This document shows positions 43,824-55,126 of a stretch of DNA of 64,000 nucleotides, one piece after another; position 1 is the stretch's first letter; every line of letters starts with the position of its first letter. The stretch lies in NCBI RefSeq assembly GCF_001605885.1, contig NZ_LRPE01000007.1, forward strand, positions 1-64,000, in the 5' to 3' direction. Origin of the DNA: Acinetobacter lactucae. Its GTDB lineage: Bacteria > Pseudomonadota > Gammaproteobacteria > Pseudomonadales > Moraxellaceae. Position numbers and translations under genes: made by a program. Under the pieces are notes generated by a model that saw nothing but the letters and a program-made list of their open reading frames with translations, was not told the DNA's origin and did not search any database.

Positions 43824-44696
43824 ATGCAATTTAAGTATAGTTTGGGCGTAATCAGTTTATGTAGCGCTTTATTTTTAGTGGGATGTAATGATGACAACTC
43901 ATCCGTTTCACAAACACCAACAGTTCAGGAACAAAAACAGAAGTTACAGCCAATTATTATTCAGGGTGCTTTACCCGTAGAGTCGGAAAGAATGGCTTCA
44001 AAGTTAGAGAATAAGACTGTTGAAAAAGTTGGTGGGTGGACCTTCTGGAAAGGAACCTATAACGGCTATCCAATGATTATTTCTAAAACCCGCATGGGTA
44101 TGAGTAACTCGGCTGCCGCAACAGCTTTAGCGATTGAACGTTATAAACCGATTGCGATCATTAATCAGGGAACATCAGGTGGACACGACCCAGATCTACA
44201 TGTCTACGATATTGTTTTAGGAAAATATACAACCAATATTGGTGCATTTAGAACACCTAAACAGCCAGTAGGTGGTGGTTCAGACTCACTCACCTGGGTT
44301 GAGGCTTTCGATGTTTTACCAACAGATGAATCTGACCCAGAACCGATTGCAATACGCAAATTTGAAGGTGACCAAGAGTTGTTAATGGCGGCACATAAAG
44401 TTCGTTATGATAAAGGCGAAGTAGTTGAAGGAACGATTGGTTCAGCAGATGTTTGGAATAACGAACTTGATCGTATTCAATTTTTCCATCAGCGTTATGG
44501 TACTTCTGTTGAGGAAATGGAAGCAGCATCAGTTGCACAAATCGCAAGCCAGTTTAATGTTCCGTTTTTAGGCATTCGAATCTTATCCAATAATATTACC
44601 AATAATGGAGCTTATGACCCAGGTACGGGAGAGGCTTGTCAAGAGTATGTGCTTAATGTGGCTGAAGAGTATATGAAATCAAAACTGCCAAAATAA
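43824..44696 (+). CDS. Lipoprotein of the nucleoside phosphorylase / MTA-SAH nucleosidase family
   Basis: A 290-aa member of the PNP/MTAN superfamily carrying a lipoprotein signal (canonical L-V-G-C, Cys21). It should be anchored on the periplasmic side of a membrane, unlike the usual cytosolic enzymes. By alignment in my head to E. coli MTAN, E53 in GALPVES and E233 in EEMEAAS match the catalytic E12 and E174. The residue aligned to the catalytic D197 reads Asn (N256 in RILSNN). Asn is the base used by mammalian PNP for 6-oxopurines. The sequence therefore suggests purine nucleoside processing of uncertain specificity in the periplasm. It is monocistronic. Confidence 0.8.
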   Translation: MQFKYSLGVISLCSALFLVGCNDDNSSVSQTPTVQEQKQKLQPIIIQGALPVESERMASKLENKTVEKVGGWTFWKGTYNGYPMIISKTRMGMSNSAAATALAIERYKPIAIINQGTSGGHDPDLHVYDIVLGKYTTNIGAFRTPKQPVGGGSDSLTWVEAFDVLPTDESDPEPIAIRKFEGDQELLMAAHKVRYDKGEVVEGTIGSADVWNNELDRIQFFHQRYGTSVEEMEAASVAQIASQFNVPFLGIRILSNNITNNGAYDPGTGEACQEYVLNVAEEYMKSKLPK

Positions 44697-47237: not shown

Positions 47238-48551
47238 ATGCGACAGTTTACGTCTCTTCGAGTAGCACTTTTGACACTCGGAAGCTTATGCTTTTCTTCA
47301 GCTTATGCTGCTTCGACATTAGTTCCTATGTCAGATGCTGAATTATCAGCGACCCGTGGCCAAGCCTTGATGAGTATGTCATATGTTGCGCCTACCGATT
47401 CTGCAAACTTAGAAAAACTACGTGACAGTAATAGTAATGTAGGCTTTTATAAATTAGGCCTAGATGCTGATTTAGAATTGAACGCGAATATTAAAAAGTT
47501 ACAGCTTGGCTGTGGTGGGGCTAACGGTGCAGGTGCTTGTGATATTGATATTGATAACTTAAGTCTAAGCGGCATTTCAGATACTAACGATGGCCGTGCG
47601 AGTTCTTCGGCAAAATTAACCAATCCATTTATTGAGTTTGCGATTAAAAACCCTAACAGTGCATCGACTCGTGAAGTAGCGGGGGTGAGATTAAGTGCCG
47701 AATCTATTCAGGGCCTACTTACTTTTGGTTCGGAAAATACGACTACAAAAAATGGTATTAACTCTTTTAGTGGTTATATGGTAACTCAAGCGACTGGAGG
47801 AACTGTTAGTACTTTACAAGCAGTGTCAGGACAAGCTGGCTTAACTCAGACAAATTTAGGCACAGCAATTACGGGGAAAGTAAAAAGCACGACAGGGTTA
47901 GTCACCGCAGATTTCCAGACAACAAGCTATGATTTAGGTTTAAGTAGTGCATCTGGTAGTTTATTTTTACCTTCCCAGGTTATTTCTGGAAAACGTATTA
48001 CCACAGCTAATCTAACTGGTACCGCTGTAGTTAGTGGAATTAATTTATCGGGACCTATTCAAGCAAATGCCCAAGCATGGGGGGCTATCCCGCTTACTAT
48101 TAGTGGGAATCTATCAGGGACAATTAATAATCTAGGTGTAAATGTAGCAGTTAATGAGGACTTAGGATATTTCCATAAAGTTAATTTGAATGGGACTGCG
48201 GCCTCTCTTTCCTTACAAGGACAAAATTTACAATGGACAGGAGCAAAATCAGTTTCTCAGGCTGGTTGGTGGTTAGAACTCTCAAATCCAATTGATATTG
48301 GTGACGTGACCCCACAATCACAGGTCAAAATTACAGACGATGTTGTCAAAGCAACTTTAGGTAAAGTGAGTCAGTATTTAACGGCTAATCCAATTGAATG
48401 TGGGATTCTTGCTACTTCTTGCTTATTGGGAGATATCAATGTTCAATCAGTTGATTTAACAGGTCAATATGTTCCTATGAATTTGACGAATTTGGTCTTA
48501 AAAAACCAAAGTTTTGCTCCGAACTGTTATGGTAGCCTAAAGTTCTGCTAA
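47238..48551 (+). CDS. Exported surface-type protein, first of five (Fil-like)
   Basis: A 437-aa protein with a signal peptide (residues 1-24, cleavage near SSAYA-AS). The mature chain opens with the shared motif M31-S-D33-x-x-L36-x4-G41-Q42. It is rich in Ser, Thr, Asn and Gly in alternating strand-like segments, with a C-x8-C pair in LGCGGANGAGACDIDIDN, C-x6-C near IECGILATSC and another C-x6-C at the C-terminus. The style resembles FilA-type surface proteins of Acinetobacter, from memory only. GGAGG lies 6 bases before ATG 47238, so I prefer it to ATG 47211. It starts a five-gene same-strand cluster. Confidence 0.72.
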   Translation: MRQFTSLRVALLTLGSLCFSSAYAASTLVPMSDAELSATRGQALMSMSYVAPTDSANLEKLRDSNSNVGFYKLGLDADLELNANIKKLQLGCGGANGAGACDIDIDNLSLSGISDTNDGRASSSAKLTNPFIEFAIKNPNSASTREVAGVRLSAESIQGLLTFGSENTTTKNGINSFSGYMVTQATGGTVSTLQAVSGQAGLTQTNLGTAITGKVKSTTGLVTADFQTTSYDLGLSSASGSLFLPSQVISGKRITTANLTGTAVVSGINLSGPIQANAQAWGAIPLTISGNLSGTINNLGVNVAVNEDLGYFHKVNLNGTAASLSLQGQNLQWTGAKSVSQAGWWLELSNPIDIGDVTPQSQVKITDDVVKATLGKVSQYLTANPIECGILATSCLLGDINVQSVDLTGQYVPMNLTNLVLKNQSFAPNCYGSLKFC

Positions 48552-48616
48552 CTTGAAAAGAAAGTAGCTATTGCTATTTTACATTCATCGGAAAAGTAAA
48601 TTTTTACATGCTTTTT

Positions 48617-48645
48617 TTTGCATTTGTGCAAATATTCCGCATAAT
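48617..48645 (+). promoter_or_regulatory. Promoter with dyad before the second exported gene
   Basis: TTGCAT (48618-48623), a 16-base spacer and CATAAT (48640-48645) form a plausible sigma70 promoter 138 bases upstream of the next start codon. A perfect 6-4-6 dyad tttgca-tttg-tgcaaa (48617-48632) overlaps the -35 and could be an operator. Confidence 0.5.
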
Positions 48646-48783
48646 AGAAATGTGGAAAGGTTGGCAATATCTTTTAGATTTGCCTCTTTGTCTAAGGTGA
48701 AAAGGATAGCTTCACCTGGCATCAGGGATTGTTAAAGAAAAATAAATATGGTGCGCGGCATCGTATAAAACAGGAAGGTCAAG

Positions 48784-50826
48784 ATGACTACACTTAATTA
48801 TACGGTAAGGTTTCAAAAAACCGTTTTGGCAAGTTTAATCGGGCTTTGTATAAGCCAACCTAGTTTCGCACTCGAAGAACTTTCTGATGCGGGCTTGAGT
48901 GAAACGACAGGTGAAGGTATTGCTATCTTGCCACAGAATACTTATATGGTATTTCGTGGTGCAGGTGCAAATGAAACCTCAACCCAGATTTTAACTGATC
49001 GTACTAAAGATACAGGTTATATCAATTATGTACCGGTTGGCCCTTTAAGTATGACAGCCGCTGATACCAATAAAAATGGTTCTATTGATTCAGGTGACCG
49101 TGCGGTAGGTAAAGCAGATATTTTTCTTTATGGCTTAGCACTTTCTAAATCTGATAATAATACCAATACTCGCCTTGCTTCTACCGATGCAGCTGCTGCA
49201 ATCTCAAGTTGGGGTACTGCTGTTAACCCGTGGATTTTCAAAGTTGCGACTGAAAACTCAGTGCCGAATTTTAGTGCAAATAATTGTACAGGTGCGACTG
49301 ACCCAACATGTCAGGTAACTTACTTAGCTTTAGAAGCCCCTTTATATGAAGTCGGAACAAAGGATTCTGCAGGTATTGACGCTTATAAGCTGAAATTAGG
49401 CTTATGGACAGATATTTTTGTCCGTAATCCAAATAAAATAAATGGCGTCACAGATCAATTTAATTATGGCGATTCAAATGGTCTAATTGGCACGAGTACT
49501 GACGCAACTCGTGCAAACCGTCTTCGTTTACAAGGAGTGTGGAATAACTTTAGCTTAAATGGCAGCCGCTTACAGCTTTTCCAAACATTAGGTGGAGCGA
49601 CATCTGCTGGAGGAATGAGTCCTTTCTATAACGATACTTTAGGCTTTGCTGGAGTAGTACGTTTAAATAGTGGTGATGCCTCTAATTTAAGAGCAACGAT
49701 TACTTCAAATACTCCAACGTCTACAGTAGGGCCATGGGTAAATCGTTATAGCACTCAATATACTGGCGCACCGAGTAATAACTCCCCAAGTTCAGATTGG
49801 TTATATCGTATTCGTAGTCAGACCACGACTGTGACATCAACAGGGTCATGGACTGCCCCAACTGACAGTGCTATGAATAATGTTTTACGTTTAAGTACGC
49901 GCGAGTCAGGGACTACACAAGGCAATTTGGTAACACCTGCAATTAATGGTGGAACTGCTCCAACTTTTGATGCAAATGAAGGGTTATATCTCTATAACCC
50001 GAATATTAACCTTGTATTGGGTTCTTTATATCAGCCATTAGTTTTAAGCTCGGATGGCAAGAACTTTAGTATAGAACTCGCTCGTATTCCAAATAAACCT
50101 GAAATTTATAAGAAAATCTATACAGACTATAGTGGAGCAGATACGAGTTATTTAGGTTCTACTTGTAATATTTATCAATGTGGTACGAACGTAACATTAG
50201 GTGGAAAAACTTATCAGGGCTCTAGCGCCACTCATAGTAGCATTTCAATTGGTTCAACTGTCTATAATGCAACCAATAATACTTTAGAAGCATTTAAAGG
50301 AAATAGCACACAAGATGCGGTTGGTATTTCATTTGGTAAATTACCTACAGGCACTGTGGCTGCGATCACGCAAACTAAAAACTTCTACCAATTGCAAAAT
50401 CAAGAACGCCGTGCTGGTAGCTATAGCTGCGGATTTTTGAATTTAAGTACTTGTTATGATACATGGCAATATCGGACAGCAACAGGCTGGACTGGCAATG
50501 CTGGCTCAGGTTTAAAATTTGATTCTCAGGGTGCGAATTGGGCAAATGTAGAGAGTACTGCTTATTATAATCCTACTGTGAATAATACAGGTTATACCTT
50601 AGCTGATGCCGGAAATGGCGCTCAGTACACAGTACCGAATGGTACGCCTTTGCCAGATGCCCGTTATGAGGGTGGGCGTTGGTACACGACCACGCCAAAT
50701 GCAGATTTGAACACGTATAAGTTATCTGGAGCGCAAATTAGCTCAGCAATTACGAATAATATGGGTTCTGCTGTTATTGATGGTGTTTTAATTCAGCACT
50801 TAAAACTCACAACTAAAGGCCTATAA
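48784..50826 (+). CDS. Exported surface-type protein, second of five
   Basis: A 680-aa protein with signal peptide (residues 1-29, cleavage near PSFA-LE). The shared motif appears as L33-S-D35-x-x-L38-x4-G43-E44-x-G45. A calcium-binding-style loop, DTNKNGSIDSGD at residues 94-105, has acidic or amide ligands at positions 1, 3, 5 and 12. Cysteine pairs appear as C-x7-C (NNCTGATDPTCQV), C-x4-C (STCNIYQC) and C-x7-C (YSCGFLNLSTCYD). The body is Thr/Ser/Asn/Gly-rich and strand-like, as in extracellular adhesins. GGAAGGTCAAG precedes the ATG. I do not recognise a catalytic domain. Confidence 0.75.
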   Translation: MTTLNYTVRFQKTVLASLIGLCISQPSFALEELSDAGLSETTGEGIAILPQNTYMVFRGAGANETSTQILTDRTKDTGYINYVPVGPLSMTAADTNKNGSIDSGDRAVGKADIFLYGLALSKSDNNTNTRLASTDAAAAISSWGTAVNPWIFKVATENSVPNFSANNCTGATDPTCQVTYLALEAPLYEVGTKDSAGIDAYKLKLGLWTDIFVRNPNKINGVTDQFNYGDSNGLIGTSTDATRANRLRLQGVWNNFSLNGSRLQLFQTLGGATSAGGMSPFYNDTLGFAGVVRLNSGDASNLRATITSNTPTSTVGPWVNRYSTQYTGAPSNNSPSSDWLYRIRSQTTTVTSTGSWTAPTDSAMNNVLRLSTRESGTTQGNLVTPAINGGTAPTFDANEGLYLYNPNINLVLGSLYQPLVLSSDGKNFSIELARIPNKPEIYKKIYTDYSGADTSYLGSTCNIYQCGTNVTLGGKTYQGSSATHSSISIGSTVYNATNNTLEAFKGNSTQDAVGISFGKLPTGTVAAITQTKNFYQLQNQERRAGSYSCGFLNLSTCYDTWQYRTATGWTGNAGSGLKFDSQGANWANVESTAYYNPTVNNTGYTLADAGNGAQYTVPNGTPLPDARYEGGRWYTTTPNADLNTYKLSGAQISSAITNNMGSAVIDGVLIQHLKLTTKGL

Positions 50827-50841
50827 GAGGAGGAAAGTGAT

Positions 50842-51567
50842 ATGAAAAAAATAAGTACTTTAATCCTCGCTCTTTGTGCAACGGTCACTCATGCAGAGCT
50901 ACAAACTTTAGATAATGAAGCATTACAAGCCATCAATGGTCAGGCTGGTGCGGATTTATCGTTAATGCTTAATTTAAACCAGACAGCTAACGGTGTGTTT
51001 GACAATGGTAGTGGTGGTGTCTGTGAGAACGTAGAGTTTTGCCATATTGGTTTGGCAATTAATAAGCGTTTTGTACAGGCTGATGCAACGAAACCAAGTG
51101 GCTGGGCCGAAAATAGTGATAGTGGTAATAAACTTTGGCTCGTATTTAAAGGCGTACAAGGTACTTTAAATATTCAAAAGATGGGTTTGGATGGTGCTGA
51201 TTTAAAGTATTTGGATAAAAACAATACTGAAATGATTAAGCCTGCTATTCAACTGAGTTTTAGTGCAGCACAGCCAATTTTAATTCGTAACTTTGGTTTT
51301 AATGCTTTATCAATTGAGCAAGATAACTTTACCAGCTCAACAACAGCGCAAGGTTCGAGCGCAAATATGTATGATTATGCATATTTCAAAAAGCCAACTT
51401 ATGCAGCAACTGCCAATAGTGCAAACCAGCAAGTGGCTACTGCAACACCATCGGTGTATGACCATGGGCGTGAAACTGGTTTTATGGGCTTAATGATGAA
51501 CGGAAACTTGGCTATTCAAGGAAAAGTCATGGTCTTTAGCTGTGATGGCAGCCATCCTCGTTGTTAA
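50842..51567 (+). CDS. Exported DUF6160-type protein, third of five
   Basis: A 241-aa exported protein. The signal peptide is residues 1-18 (MKKISTLILALCATVTHA), followed at once by L23-D-N25-x-x-L28-x4-G33-Q34-x-G36. A C-x5-C pair (VCENVEFCHIG) and a C-terminal C-x6-C (FSCDGSHPRC) suggest disulfides. The middle is strand-like (LWLVFKGVQGTLNIQKMGL). It begins 15 bases after the second gene with GAGGAGGAAAGTGAT ahead of the ATG, so it is cotranscribed. The N-terminal pattern matches proteins annotated as DUF6160 in Acinetobacter, from memory. Confidence 0.78.
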   Translation: MKKISTLILALCATVTHAELQTLDNEALQAINGQAGADLSLMLNLNQTANGVFDNGSGGVCENVEFCHIGLAINKRFVQADATKPSGWAENSDSGNKLWLVFKGVQGTLNIQKMGLDGADLKYLDKNNTEMIKPAIQLSFSAAQPILIRNFGFNALSIEQDNFTSSTTAQGSSANMYDYAYFKKPTYAATANSANQQVATATPSVYDHGRETGFMGLMMNGNLAIQGKVMVFSCDGSHPRC

Positions 51568-51599
51568 GGGTTAATGTAGATTTCAAAGGAACTGAAGTG

Positions 51600-54011
51600 A
51601 TGAAAAAAAATAAAGAAAATCACAGCTCAAAGTTTATTTTAAATGCATTAACAACCAGCATGTTGTTAGTGAGCGGACACGTTTTTGCTTTAGAAGCTTT
51701 AACAGATGCTGATTTGAGTGCTGTTAATGGACAAGATGGAATTTCGATTCAAACGACGTTTAATGAAATCAATATTGATAATGCTTACTGGGATGACCAT
51801 GCGGGTACATCTAGCAGTGCTGATCAGGTTTTAAGGGCGCAAGCCGGTGGCATAAAAGTTCAAAAAAGTAATGCATCTAGTCAGCCTTTAAGCACAAATT
51901 ATCGGTTAGATGTAGGGAGCAATCCAACTACGGGTAAAACTGGACTCGACTTTTCTATGCAAAGCAGTCCCTCACTTATTACTGTGAATAGTTTTAAGGT
52001 ATGTAATAACTCTGCTACTTGCTCACCGACTATGGGGCAGTTGGCTATTCAAACAACTTCTCCACTAAATTTGGCACTTACCACCCAAGACGGTCTATTT
52101 AATGCAAATAGTCAGTCAAGCATGACGCTCGGAATTAATAATGCCAATATTTATTTAGGGCAAGTCGATGCGCGCAGCCAGTTAAATCAATTAATTTTAA
52201 GAAATTTTAACTTTAATTTTGTCGGTAAAGGGGCGATGTTAATTGACCCAACTCGTGGCCTAGTTTTACAGACAAATACTGGAACTAACGTCGCTAGTGT
52301 AGGTCAAACCCCGAATAATACCTATGGATATGTTGATTTTAACCGTGTAGCAGATTCAGCTTCTGGTTTAACAGCAGGCACATATGTAGATAGTAGTGGA
52401 AAAGTAACCAATTCGGGCCTGAACATTGAGGTCATGTTAAGTTCTAATGTTGATAAAACTAATCCTTATGCTTTAGATGCCACCAATAGTCCACAAAATG
52501 CGAAAGGTTTGATTCGTTTAGGTGCTAGTGGACGTATGGTAAATAGTTATTTACAAGTCCGTGGTATGGATGGTACGTCAGATACAACAATATTAGGTAC
52601 GGCAAATACCGCTTCGGGCACCAGTTCAAGTAATAGTATTTTAGGTAATTCTGGAATTGCCTTTCGTATGAAAGGTGAGTTCACTAAAGATAATGACTCA
52701 ATGCTAGGTTCAGATGGTAAAGCAACCACGTTAGAAATTGGTGGAGCAGGTCTGAATGCTTATGGGTTCGAATTTGGTAATTTAACAGGTCTTAATTCTG
52801 CTACGCGCGGTTATTTCGACAGCGGAAATATTTATTTAAATCTCGCTGATACAAAAACGTTATTAATGCCAAACAACGCGACTTTAAATGCAATTCGTTT
52901 AGGGTCGGGTACTTTAACTACAGCTGCTGATTATCAGCATAATATTCATCGTGATACGATGACTAATCCATTTAGCTTAATTCTTGCGATGCGTGGAGCA
53001 GAGTTTCAAGCATTTTCAAGACGCGGTCGTTTTACGACAAGTGCGAATGTCGCTGCTGCCAATCAGTTTGCAGACAACGGTGCAAATAACCAGTGGGGCT
53101 TAGCCTTACCTTTTTATAATTTGAATGCTAACGCTGCTGTATATGGTTTAGATGCACCAGCAAATAGTGCTTATTACTATACAAAAGATGCAAATGGTAA
53201 GCCTGTTCGAAATGTTGTGGCTACATCTGGAACGACTTCGCGTTTAGGTTTTGGGATTGCTGCCGGAACTACTGGACGTGATGCGACTGGAACCAAAACA
53301 ACCTCAATTTTATTAATTGATGGTTCTCCAAATGCTAATAATGGTGGTAGTCCTACTGATTATTACATGGGCTTACGTAATATCGACATGTTCCTCAAAG
53401 GCAATGGAACTATTGGTTTAGAAAATGGCAGCCTCAATGTTAGTTTAAAAGAGATGCTGCTTGCTTTATCAACAGAAATTGCAGCAGGTTATTTACCAGG
53501 TGCTAAATATAAAACTTGTCCAGCGACAGGTTCATGTACTTCACCTATCGATAATTTTGCCAAAAATAATGATGTTTTATTTGGTTTAAAACTACGTTTA
53601 GGTGGCGATCTTAACTTATCGATCGTTCCAAATAGTTCTATTGCAGATGGTAGTGCTTTAACTGTACTCGGCGATTTCACAATGCCGGCGACAGCAACTG
53701 GAAATACAGTTCAAATTAGTGATCCGATTGATGGTTCTGCAATTGGCTTTGATAATATTACCGGAAAGCTAGCATTTAATACCGCTTTGGTTGTGGGTAA
53801 AGATACAACGAGTGGTTTAGGTAAAGTTGGCGTAAATACGGCGGTTTATTTTAACCCTGATAAGAGTATTGATGGCGCGTTACGTGTTAAAGATATTAAT
53901 TTCTATCCACCTTCAACAGGAGCTGGAGCGCGTTTAGGTGAGCTTGCAATTACTGGTGGACGTTTAAATAGTAGCTTTAGTATTGTGCCTAGAAATGGAG
54001 CCTTTAACTAA
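51600..54011 (+). CDS. Exported DUF6160-type protein, fourth of five
   Basis: The largest of the group, 803 aa. It has an unusually long, basic signal peptide region (residues 1-30, cleavage near GHVFA-LE), then L34-T-D36-x-x-L39-x4-G44-Q45-x-G47. Two C-x5-C pairs are seen (VCNNSATCSP and TCPATGSCTS). Repeated strand segments carry many N-G and G-N turns. The last 60 residues end in GRLNSSFSIVPRNGAFN, without an obvious barrel signature. I start at ATG 51600 with AGGA 9 bases upstream. The longer TTG start at 51561 would overlap the third gene's end. It lies 32 bases after that gene and is followed by a terminator. Confidence 0.77.
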   Translation: MKKNKENHSSKFILNALTTSMLLVSGHVFALEALTDADLSAVNGQDGISIQTTFNEINIDNAYWDDHAGTSSSADQVLRAQAGGIKVQKSNASSQPLSTNYRLDVGSNPTTGKTGLDFSMQSSPSLITVNSFKVCNNSATCSPTMGQLAIQTTSPLNLALTTQDGLFNANSQSSMTLGINNANIYLGQVDARSQLNQLILRNFNFNFVGKGAMLIDPTRGLVLQTNTGTNVASVGQTPNNTYGYVDFNRVADSASGLTAGTYVDSSGKVTNSGLNIEVMLSSNVDKTNPYALDATNSPQNAKGLIRLGASGRMVNSYLQVRGMDGTSDTTILGTANTASGTSSSNSILGNSGIAFRMKGEFTKDNDSMLGSDGKATTLEIGGAGLNAYGFEFGNLTGLNSATRGYFDSGNIYLNLADTKTLLMPNNATLNAIRLGSGTLTTAADYQHNIHRDTMTNPFSLILAMRGAEFQAFSRRGRFTTSANVAAANQFADNGANNQWGLALPFYNLNANAAVYGLDAPANSAYYYTKDANGKPVRNVVATSGTTSRLGFGIAAGTTGRDATGTKTTSILLIDGSPNANNGGSPTDYYMGLRNIDMFLKGNGTIGLENGSLNVSLKEMLLALSTEIAAGYLPGAKYKTCPATGSCTSPIDNFAKNNDVLFGLKLRLGGDLNLSIVPNSSIADGSALTVLGDFTMPATATGNTVQISDPIDGSAIGFDNITGKLAFNTALVVGKDTTSGLGKVGVNTAVYFNPDKSIDGALRVKDINFYPPSTGAGARLGELAITGGRLNSSFSIVPRNGAFN

Positions 54012-54017
54012 TTAAAG

Positions 54018-54046
54018 AAAGCAGCGTTAATCGCTGCTTTTTTATA
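54018..54046 (+). terminator. Terminator after the fourth exported gene
   Basis: A 9-bp stem (aaagcagcg / cgctgcttt) with a 5-base loop and T-run closes the transcript 7 bases after the stop. The fifth paralogue is therefore probably expressed from its own promoter or by read-through. Confidence 0.88.
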
Positions 54047-54172
54047 TAAATTTTATTTTAGTGTGATTGGATTTGCATTCGTCGGGTTATAGAGATAATT
54101 GCTTTGTACTTGAATATTATTCTGATAGTCTGAACAAATAATAAGCGTTTGTCTCTTAAGGATTAGAGCGAC

Positions 54173-55126
54173 ATGAAGAATAAAAATATAGGGTTCTGGC
54201 TGCTACTTGCCAGTAGTTCAAGTGTTTTTGCAATGCAACCTTTGGATGATCAAAGCCTTGCAGCAGCGACTGGCCAAAATGGCTTAACCTTAGGCATTCA
54301 GGCCGATAGCGTTAAATTTAATCAAGTCGCTCTCATTGATACTAACGGTATTGCCTCAACGTCTTATAACAGTAAAGCTGGTTTTGTCATTGCGGGAAAC
54401 TCTACTAATCCAGTTCCTGGCATAGAATTTATTAAGGCTGCTGTATCGGGTAATCCTTCTTTTAATATTGCAATGGATGCCGATGCTGGTGGTGGAAATC
54501 CGTTTTTAAATTTAGCTATATCTATGGGGAATGATGTAAACGGTATTCGACTTTTACCTTTTTCAGTTTATTTAGCCCCAAGTGCATCTTTATCTAGCCC
54601 ATCCGATTATGCATTAACAAGTTATGCACCCAAATCAATTTTTAGTTCGGGAACGACAGTAAATACGGGTGTAAAAGAACTGATCCGTTCTACTGGAAAT
54701 CTAGATATTAACTTTGTACAAACCAATAAACCCCGCTTAAATATTCAACTTGGCCATGCTGCGCAGTCCGTCATGGTTAAATTTGGTGGGGCAATTCAAT
54801 CTATTTGTTCTGCTGCCTCTGGCTGTCCAATTACTTTGGTGTCCGATAATACAGGCGCAACATTTGGGTTTAAGTTTGCAGGAACAAATACTTCAACGGG
54901 TTTTGTGTTAGATGGTTTTTATGCAGGGGTTGATTCAACTGGATTAGCTTTTGGCAATACAGGCGCATCTAGTAAATTTGATGCTTCACTTAACAATGTC
55001 ACTTTAGGAAATATGGGTACACAAAATACAACAACGTTTAATAATTTACCTAATGGCTCTATGGGGAGTTTTGGTGTCACTGGCGTTTCTGTAACTGACT
55101 TTAAAATGAAAGTAAGCGGCTTTTAA
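54173..55126 (+). CDS. Exported DUF6160-type protein, fifth of five
   Basis: A 317-aa protein with signal peptide (residues 1-20, cleavage near SVFA-MQ) and the motif L24-D-D26-x-x-L29-x4-G34-Q35-x-G37. It has a single C-x5-C pair (ICSAASGCPI) at about residues 216-222. Its last residues alternate hydrophobic and polar and end in Phe (TDFKMKVSGF), loosely like an outer-membrane strand, though the rest gives no clear barrel. TAAGGATTAGAG lies ahead of the ATG. It is separated from the fourth gene by a terminator and 160 bases. Confidence 0.75.
   Translation: MKNKNIGFWLLLASSSSVFAMQPLDDQSLAAATGQNGLTLGIQADSVKFNQVALIDTNGIASTSYNSKAGFVIAGNSTNPVPGIEFIKAAVSGNPSFNIAMDADAGGGNPFLNLAISMGNDVNGIRLLPFSVYLAPSASLSSPSDYALTSYAPKSIFSSGTTVNTGVKELIRSTGNLDINFVQTNKPRLNIQLGHAAQSVMVKFGGAIQSICSAASGCPITLVSDNTGATFGFKFAGTNTSTGFVLDGFYAGVDSTGLAFGNTGASSKFDASLNNVTLGNMGTQNTTTFNNLPNGSMGSFGVTGVSVTDFKMKVSGF

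Follow-up and report, generated by a model that had tools for sequence, protein, structure and literature searches.

Here, we examine five consecutive genes for exported proteins in a window of 64,000 nucleotides from Acinetobacter lactucae (NZ_LRPE01000007.1, positions 1 to 64,000), together with a short block that their products share behind the signal peptide, which is probably a leader read by FilB, a C39-type peptidase encoded elsewhere in the same genome. As the sequence-only reading of this region had proposed, five open reading frames (ORFs) follow one another on the plus strand at 47238-55126, encoding proteins of 437, 680, 241, 803 and 317 aa (P1 to P5; Table 1), and each begins with an N-terminus resembling a Sec signal peptide. 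Signal peptides were assigned by a simple hydropathy rule, not SignalP, and A-x-A-like cut sites by eye. The shared block, hereafter the tag, spans 12 residues, starts three to six residues past the A-x-A-like cut and corresponds to the N-terminal end of Pfam DUF6160. All five proteins contain the pattern [LMIV]-x-[DNES]-x-x-[LM]-x4-[GA]-[QE]. The fixed spacing of five residues from L to G that had been read from the sequence holds in every copy; the trailing x-G of the motif as first written occurs in only three of five, being missing in P1 (GQAL) and P2 (GEGI).

Table 1. Cluster genes, tags and related loci (AF2, AlphaFold2)
Feature	Position	Strand	Remarks
P1	47238..48551	+	437 aa, exported; beta-rich body, C-terminal NCYGSLKFC; AF2 pLDDT 87
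P2	48784..50826	+	680 aa, exported; homologues in 30/58 relatives
P3	50842..51567	+	241 aa, exported; DUF6160 match 6.9e-07
P4	51600..54011	+	803 aa, exported; DUF6160 match 4.6e-09
P5	54173..55126	+	317 aa, exported; homologous to FilA; pilus_FilA match 5.1e-29, under model cut-off
Tag of P1, MSDAELSATRGQ	47328..47363	+	residues 31-42; AF2 helix 33-38
Tag of P2, LSDAGLSETTGE	48880..48915	+	residues 33-44; E at -1, 97% kept in family
Tag of P3, LDNEALQAINGQ	50908..50943	+	residues 23-34
Tag of P4, LTDADLSAVNGQ	51699..51734	+	residues 34-45
Tag of P5, LDDQSLAAATGQ	54242..54277	+	residues 24-35; AF2 helix 26-33
filA-F operon	contig 16 of same genome (L007), unlinked to cluster		FilA with DUF6160 and tag; FilB, C39 peptidase
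Rest of fil operon	contig 16 (L007)		FilC FapF-like; FilD FadL-like; FilE; FilF lipoprotein
P1 paralogue	L008:6409-7680 (contig 7:104408)		same genome, outside cluster; full-length
Tagged loci of G195/G307	L049, L051, L054, L055, L059, L060, L063-L066, L068, L069, L071-L073		mostly short proteins, bodies largely unrelated

The tag exceeds what random signal-peptide junctions offer. None of 205 other signal-peptide-like ORFs, taken from the remaining window and the flanks of 80 relatives' loci, has it 25 residues or less from the predicted end of the signal; one of these controls, L273:15025-16437, looks P1-type with its tag farther from the signal, and was retained, slightly inflating the control counts for the looser patterns given below. 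Moreover, a profile of 80 tagged N-termini, which includes the genome's own FilA, P3, P4 and P5 and leaves out P1, P2 and the P1 paralogue, returned seven clear matches in this genome (E 9e-6 or better, the next at E 0.04), namely P1 to P5, the FilA on contig 16 and the P1 paralogue.

Little else is shared, as had also been claimed. Profile alignments of P5 cover 24 columns with P1, 44 with P3 and 47 with P4, corresponding to the signal peptide and tag and, in P4, a few residues more; that with P2 is weak (probability 11.7) and lies at the same N-terminal place. As the alignments with P1, P3 and P4 end at the block or slightly past it, the picture of one tag on unlike bodies holds. P5 is nonetheless not an orphan; it is a homologue of FilA, the two aligning across 177 profile columns. 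The link to DUF6160 and Fil annotations, drawn in the sequence-only reading, proved correct, with DUF6160 and FilA-model matches in the cluster and a fil operon in the same genome. The DUF6160 cut-off (PF19657, 27 bits) is passed by P3 (29.9), P4 (36.9) and P5 (31.4) and missed by P1 (15.4) and P2 (no match), though both are tagged. For the FilA model (NF050077, cut-off 220 bits), P5 (101.6), P4 (53.6) and P2 (18.1) all score below the threshold, which the FilA of the fil operon passes (334 bits).

The bodies of P1 and P5, the two proteins modelled with AF2, are beta-rich. Comparison with solved structures gave weak results for both (Foldseek best E 0.073 for P1 and 0.26 for P5; maximal VIA Z 4.9 and 5.6, respectively), leaving no usable match for either body by Foldseek or VIA. 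A beta-barrel or FapF likeness of the P5 fold was set aside, as its VIA Z of about 5 falls within the range of chance arrangements. Cys61, Cys67, Cys234 and Cys241 of P3 are invariant across 19 sequences. The cysteine pair in the NCYGxLKFC motif at the very end of P1 is invariant too; C61/C67 and C234/C241 of P3 and the terminal pair of P1 may form disulphides.

The tag stands in the register of C39 ('double-glycine') leaders, with L/M at -12, L at -7, G at -2 and Gln/Glu at -1. The C39 leader consensus is described as L(-12)xxxE(-8)L(-7)xxxxG(-2)G(-1), with a helix from -10 to -4 and with V-4, L-7 and L-12 sitting in the peptidase groove (PMC6959990, PMC6363468). All five window proteins have hydrophobic residues at -12 and -7 and G at -2, as C39 leaders do. 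To this we can add 154 tagged N-termini (of 156 found, two lacked a signal peptide and were left out; close relatives are counted), collected with a pattern that preset -12, -10, -7, -2 and -1 (Q/E only) and left the other positions free. Among the free positions, -15 is L/M/I in 37/39 sequences outside Acinetobacter and 115/115 inside, -4 is V/I in 33/39 outside and 50/115 inside, and -8 is E in 21/39 outside. Furthermore, AF2 places a short helix over the tag, outside the beta-rich body, from -10 to -3 in P5 and from -10 to -5 in P1.

Conservation singles out the same positions. Relatives' loci were the best 80 of 105 P3 relatives and include two Alkanindiges and one Alcanivoracaceae bin; the genome itself falls in the calcoaceticus-baumannii complex, and its P3 is identical to the copy of A. 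pittii ATCC 19004 (L213). Over these loci, P3 and P4 occur in 80, P2 in 79, P1 in 78 and P5 in 46, and a slightly widened form of the block is found in 393 of 400 cluster proteins. In families gathered by BLAST, independently of the tag pattern, G(-2) is kept at 90-100% and Q/E(-1) at 96-99%; in every one of the five families, these two columns rank in the top 14% or higher. The commonest residue accounts for 53-88% at -12, 73-100% at -7 and 90-100% at -2, against mean shares of 36-64% over signal peptide columns and 46-63% over body columns. P1 and P2 change quickly: across L213-L221, identity is 46-87% for P1 and 51-98% for P2 vs 87-100% for P3-P5, and P1 is present in zero to four copies per locus, shifting its place in the gene order. 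The divergence of P1 and P2 (47238-50826) together with these copy changes suggests diversifying selection or recombination, and such rapid replacement between close relatives would be compatible with surface exposure.

A peptidase of the C39 family is encoded in the fil operon. FilB, of 277 aa and devoid of an ABC transporter part, scores above the NCBIfam FilB cut-off and also matches FapD (1.3e-31) and Peptidase_C39. An alignment of 15 FilB/FapD sequences shows no variation at Cys72, His157, Asp173 and Gln66 of FilB, and the FilB/FapD profile matches the peptidase domains of LahT (6MPZ), PCAT1 and ComA. FilC in turn matches FapF, including a direct sequence match to the solved FapF structure. 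Both are only distant relatives of their Fap counterparts, falling below both equivalog cut-offs, and no NCBIfam FapB, FapC or FapE match turned up among the five proteins of the window or the six of the fil operon. A published description treats the operon as putatively one for pilus assembly, its exact role being unknown (PMC4751259); the pilus reading lacks support here, with no pilin, usher or chaperone family among the library matches of the fil proteins.

The catalytic residues of FilB bear on whether the tag is cut at all. It could instead dock, either on FilB, whose C39 domain would then act like a chaperone, or on the periplasmic portion of FilC, thereby targeting the cargo to the channel and staying on the mature protein. 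A C39 cut behind Q would be unusual, some C39 domains of secretion systems are reported to be non-proteolytic (PMC5557850, PMC5135000), and the FilB/FilC co-occurrence described below would fit docking equally. Yet the Cys, His and Asp and the Gln before the Cys do not vary in the aligned sequences, the catalytic Cys of FapD is required for FapC secretion (PMC5557850), and few columns are as well conserved as G(-2) and Q/E(-1), a pattern more in keeping with a cleavage site than with a docking helix. We therefore regard docking without cleavage as unlikely, and cleavage by FilB as the better account.

The same register recurs beside FapD. FapD serves as the peptidase of the Pseudomonas amyloid system and FapF as its outer-membrane channel, and the target of FapD is given as unclear (PMC5557850). 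The two were considered likely members of larger families (PMC3792158), and co-localised pairs are described from five further phyla (PMC6173800). The accounts consulted describe Fap proteins as being without canonical C39 sequences and give no targeting sequence for FapC (PMC5557850, PMC6173800); a 2025 review names FapE and FapF as presumed substrates of FapD (PMC12822426). FapE alone of the Fap proteins has a mature N-terminus, of about 70 residues, that is missing from whole-cell peptides (PMC5557850). A bona fide FapE (347 bits, cut-off 250) carries the leader IELKDQELAQLRGK past its signal, where it reads ..FRPIELKDQELAQLRGKYV.., and its genome (G385) encodes FapC, D, E and F all above the NCBIfam cut-offs. 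This genome (L196:6613-7467, minus strand, and L202:6070-8652, plus strand, read strand by strand) holds both a fap operon with the RGK leader of FapE and a separate FilA-B-C set with the GQ tag; each peptidase type thus stands beside its own tag type.

Beyond this genome, FapD-type loci were L079-L102, the 24 of 30 left after removal of six DUF6160 genomes; 23 were used, L100 being dropped because no C39 ORF was recognised there by pattern. A same-strand signal-peptide ORF with L-12/L-7/[GA]-2 is present in 20/23, anywhere in the 3.4-kb locus. Counted by ORF, this pattern occurs in 31/56 ORFs of FapD-type loci vs 47/206 controls (p 5e-6) and a stricter core in 15/56 vs 6/206 (p 3e-7). Counted by locus, three whole-locus patterns are found in 20, 12 and 11 of 23, and a 400-bp neighbour rule gives 14, 11 and 7 of 23 for three other patterns of rising strictness, above controls each time. 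Composition is unmatched in these comparisons, since the controls were drawn from Acinetobacter and its near relatives and the FapD-type loci are largely GC-richer. In other genera, signal-peptide proteins next to FapD-type peptidases carry leaders of this register such as VSNQELDQLRGG, LDDDTLDTLRGG, LTSEEMAALRGG and LSDEELGGLRGR. Apart from these counts, one genome (G351; L198:3988-9370) shows a tandem FapD-type gene set, near-identical by eye, each copy with two leader-bearing neighbours.

The tag also tracks FilB and FilC across genomes. Among 58 relatives, 33 have DUF6160, of which 32 have FilB and the same 32 FilC; seven Acinetobacter without DUF6160 (one of them 65% complete) have no FilB and, save for one weak match, no FilC, and P2 is missing from the same seven. 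In a class survey of 258 genomes, six have DUF6160, and precisely these six give the highest scores among 36 FilB-model matches, 212-549 bits vs 130 for the next. An order survey of 115 genomes found the peptidase in 13 of 15 genomes with DUF6160, set against a FapD-model match in 20/115 overall (p 1.5e-10, a value that ignores phylogeny); one of the two exceptions, G038, is 75% complete and has FilC and a weak FilB match. A FilA match lies less than 2 kb from FilB in 28 of 29 FilB-bearing Acinetobacter, the two being on separate contigs in the 29th. Additionally, a FilC-type gene adjoins FilB in nine further genomes inspected and is one gene away in G067. In that genome, FilB is followed by an OmpA-like protein and then by a FilC-type barrel whose own N-terminal part is OmpA-like (L112:7113-9860), the barrel being possibly a peptidoglycan-anchored channel variant.

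Two genomes of one family, G195 and G307, carry 15 and 17 DUF6160 matches across many contigs and a single FilB with FilC each; of 153 pairs among 18 of their proteins, five are alike past the tag at E 0.01. Such pairs would fit the tag being a relic, the N-terminus of one old exported beta-protein family belonging to a shared surface system, with no role for FilB. Duplication did occur, as the homologous bodies of P5 and FilA and the full-length paralogue of P1 attest. Descent alone nevertheless appears improbable: the remaining 148 pairs show no likeness, the bodies of P1-P4 are unlike P5 and still G(-2) and Q/E(-1) are 90-100% kept, and the leader register recurs beside FapD with other residues at -1. 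The tag might also belong to a different route, type II secretion (T2SS) or BAM for example, a thought encouraged by FilF, the last fil protein, which in A. baumannii is reported to be a surface lipoprotein dependent on T2SS/GspN (PMC12802150). However, FilF carries a lipobox instead of the tag and is absent from the tag-profile matches in the present genome, and the tag follows FilB and FilC from genus to genus, so that we give a different route very little credence.

Taken together, we favour FilB-read processing and export as the probable function of the tag, a C39-type leader right behind the Sec signal, with the cargo leaving via FilC. Sec would take P1-P5 to the periplasm, where signal peptidase cleavage at A-x-A would leave an N-terminal leader of about 15-18 residues. 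This leader may form a short helix from -10 to about -4, with the residues at -12, -7 and -4 docking in the C39 groove of a periplasm-facing FilB, which would then cut behind Gly-Gln (Gly-Glu in P2). The beta-rich bodies could cross the outer membrane via FilC, or be handed to FilC/D/E/F for surface display. Tag, register, FilB catalytic residues, the kinship of FilB with FapD and of FilC with FapF, co-occurrence and conservation are computational results, whereas FilB orientation, recognition, the cut and its exact place, passage via FilC and surface location are inferred. Of the sorting, anchoring or assembly step first envisaged for the five proteins, sorting or processing gains support from the C39 register and from the co-occurrence with FilB and FilC in distant genera; anchoring finds none. 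The genes may, as the sequence-only reading also suggested, build one extracellular structure.

Several observations weigh against this account. The C39 enzymes known so far cleave after GG, GA or GS, and none of the five tags has G, A or S at -1, four having Q and one E. Within Acinetobacter, -4 is Thr in 43/115 tags and -8 is Glu in just 26/115; the helix over the P5 tag has low AF2 confidence; and the tag escapes the library models built for GG leaders (PF10439 matches 1/36 at E 2.5, no NCBIfam model any). The N-terminal hydrophobic segment of FilB has, by eye, no clear positive n-region, which makes its topology unsure. Near FapD, the 400-bp rule is satisfied by only 14/23 loci with L-12/L-7/G-2 and by 7/23 with the fullest pattern. 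Finally, the second exception of the order survey, G348, has a sub-threshold DUF6160 match and no peptidase, and G012, assembled as one contig, encodes four tagged cluster proteins (L119:5766-12224) with no FilB and no FilC, its one C39 match being weak and of 185 aa, with weak ones of similar size in G000, G005 and G035.

Other features near these loci deserve mention. Within the window, a lipoprotein at 43824-44696 has the lipobox CNDDNSSV, the same as that reported for a T2SS-dependent nucleosidase of A. baumannii (PMC12802150). Elsewhere, exported proteins of 1541 and 2064 aa (L103:1165-5790 and L109:2308-8502) lie one in a fil-type neighbourhood and one behind a tagged gene, the second (L109) having a GR variant of the tag.

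If the tag is indeed a leader, it offers a likely job for the FilB and FilC of a genus of clinical importance, replacing the 'putative pilus', and allows the cargos of FapD/FilB-type systems to be listed by sequence. Because the register is shared with FapE and the neighbours of FapD, the question of the FapD substrate becomes testable, and the tag turns it into a peptide-cleavage assay. More broadly, it is an evenly balanced proposition that periplasmic stand-alone C39 peptidases such as FilB and FapD form a general Gram-negative sorting dyad, with leaders ending in xGQ or RG-K/R/G, many dispersed cargos and a FapF-like channel; were this true, FapE would be the long-sought substrate of FapD. 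Among the literature matches listed, whose coverage is incomplete, no paper names such a leader.

Among known systems, a close parallel is Fap: FilB resembles FapD, FilC resembles FapF and the FapE leader stands in the same register behind a Sec signal. The fil and cluster cargos differ in being DUF6160-tagged and beta-rich (in the two modelled), in having Q/E at -1 where Fap has K/R/G, in the absence of FapB, FapC or FapE model matches, and in that the five cargo genes here are unlinked to the peptidase. With the GG leaders of bacteriocins and quorum peptides, handled by C39-ABC exporters (ComA, PCAT1, LahT), the tag shares the -15/-12/-7/-4/-2 register and the predicted helix, and FilB the intact catalytic residues. 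Unlike those leaders, the tag lies behind a Sec signal, so that its reader would be a stand-alone peptidase acting in the periplasm; it also has Q/E at -1 and precedes cargos of about 100-850 aa, and FilB lacks an ABC part. The 'putative pilus' annotation of DUF6160/FilA-F agrees with the DUF6160 matches of P3-P5 and the canonical fil operon of this genome, but leaves P1 and P2, though tagged, unrecognised. In the LPXTG/sortase and PEP-CTERM/exosortase dyads, a short terminal tag on many proteins is paired with an enzyme, and the arrangement of G195 and G307, with a tag on many unlike proteins and one enzyme per genome, is of this kind; the fil tag differs in being N-terminal and its enzyme in being a C39 peptidase.

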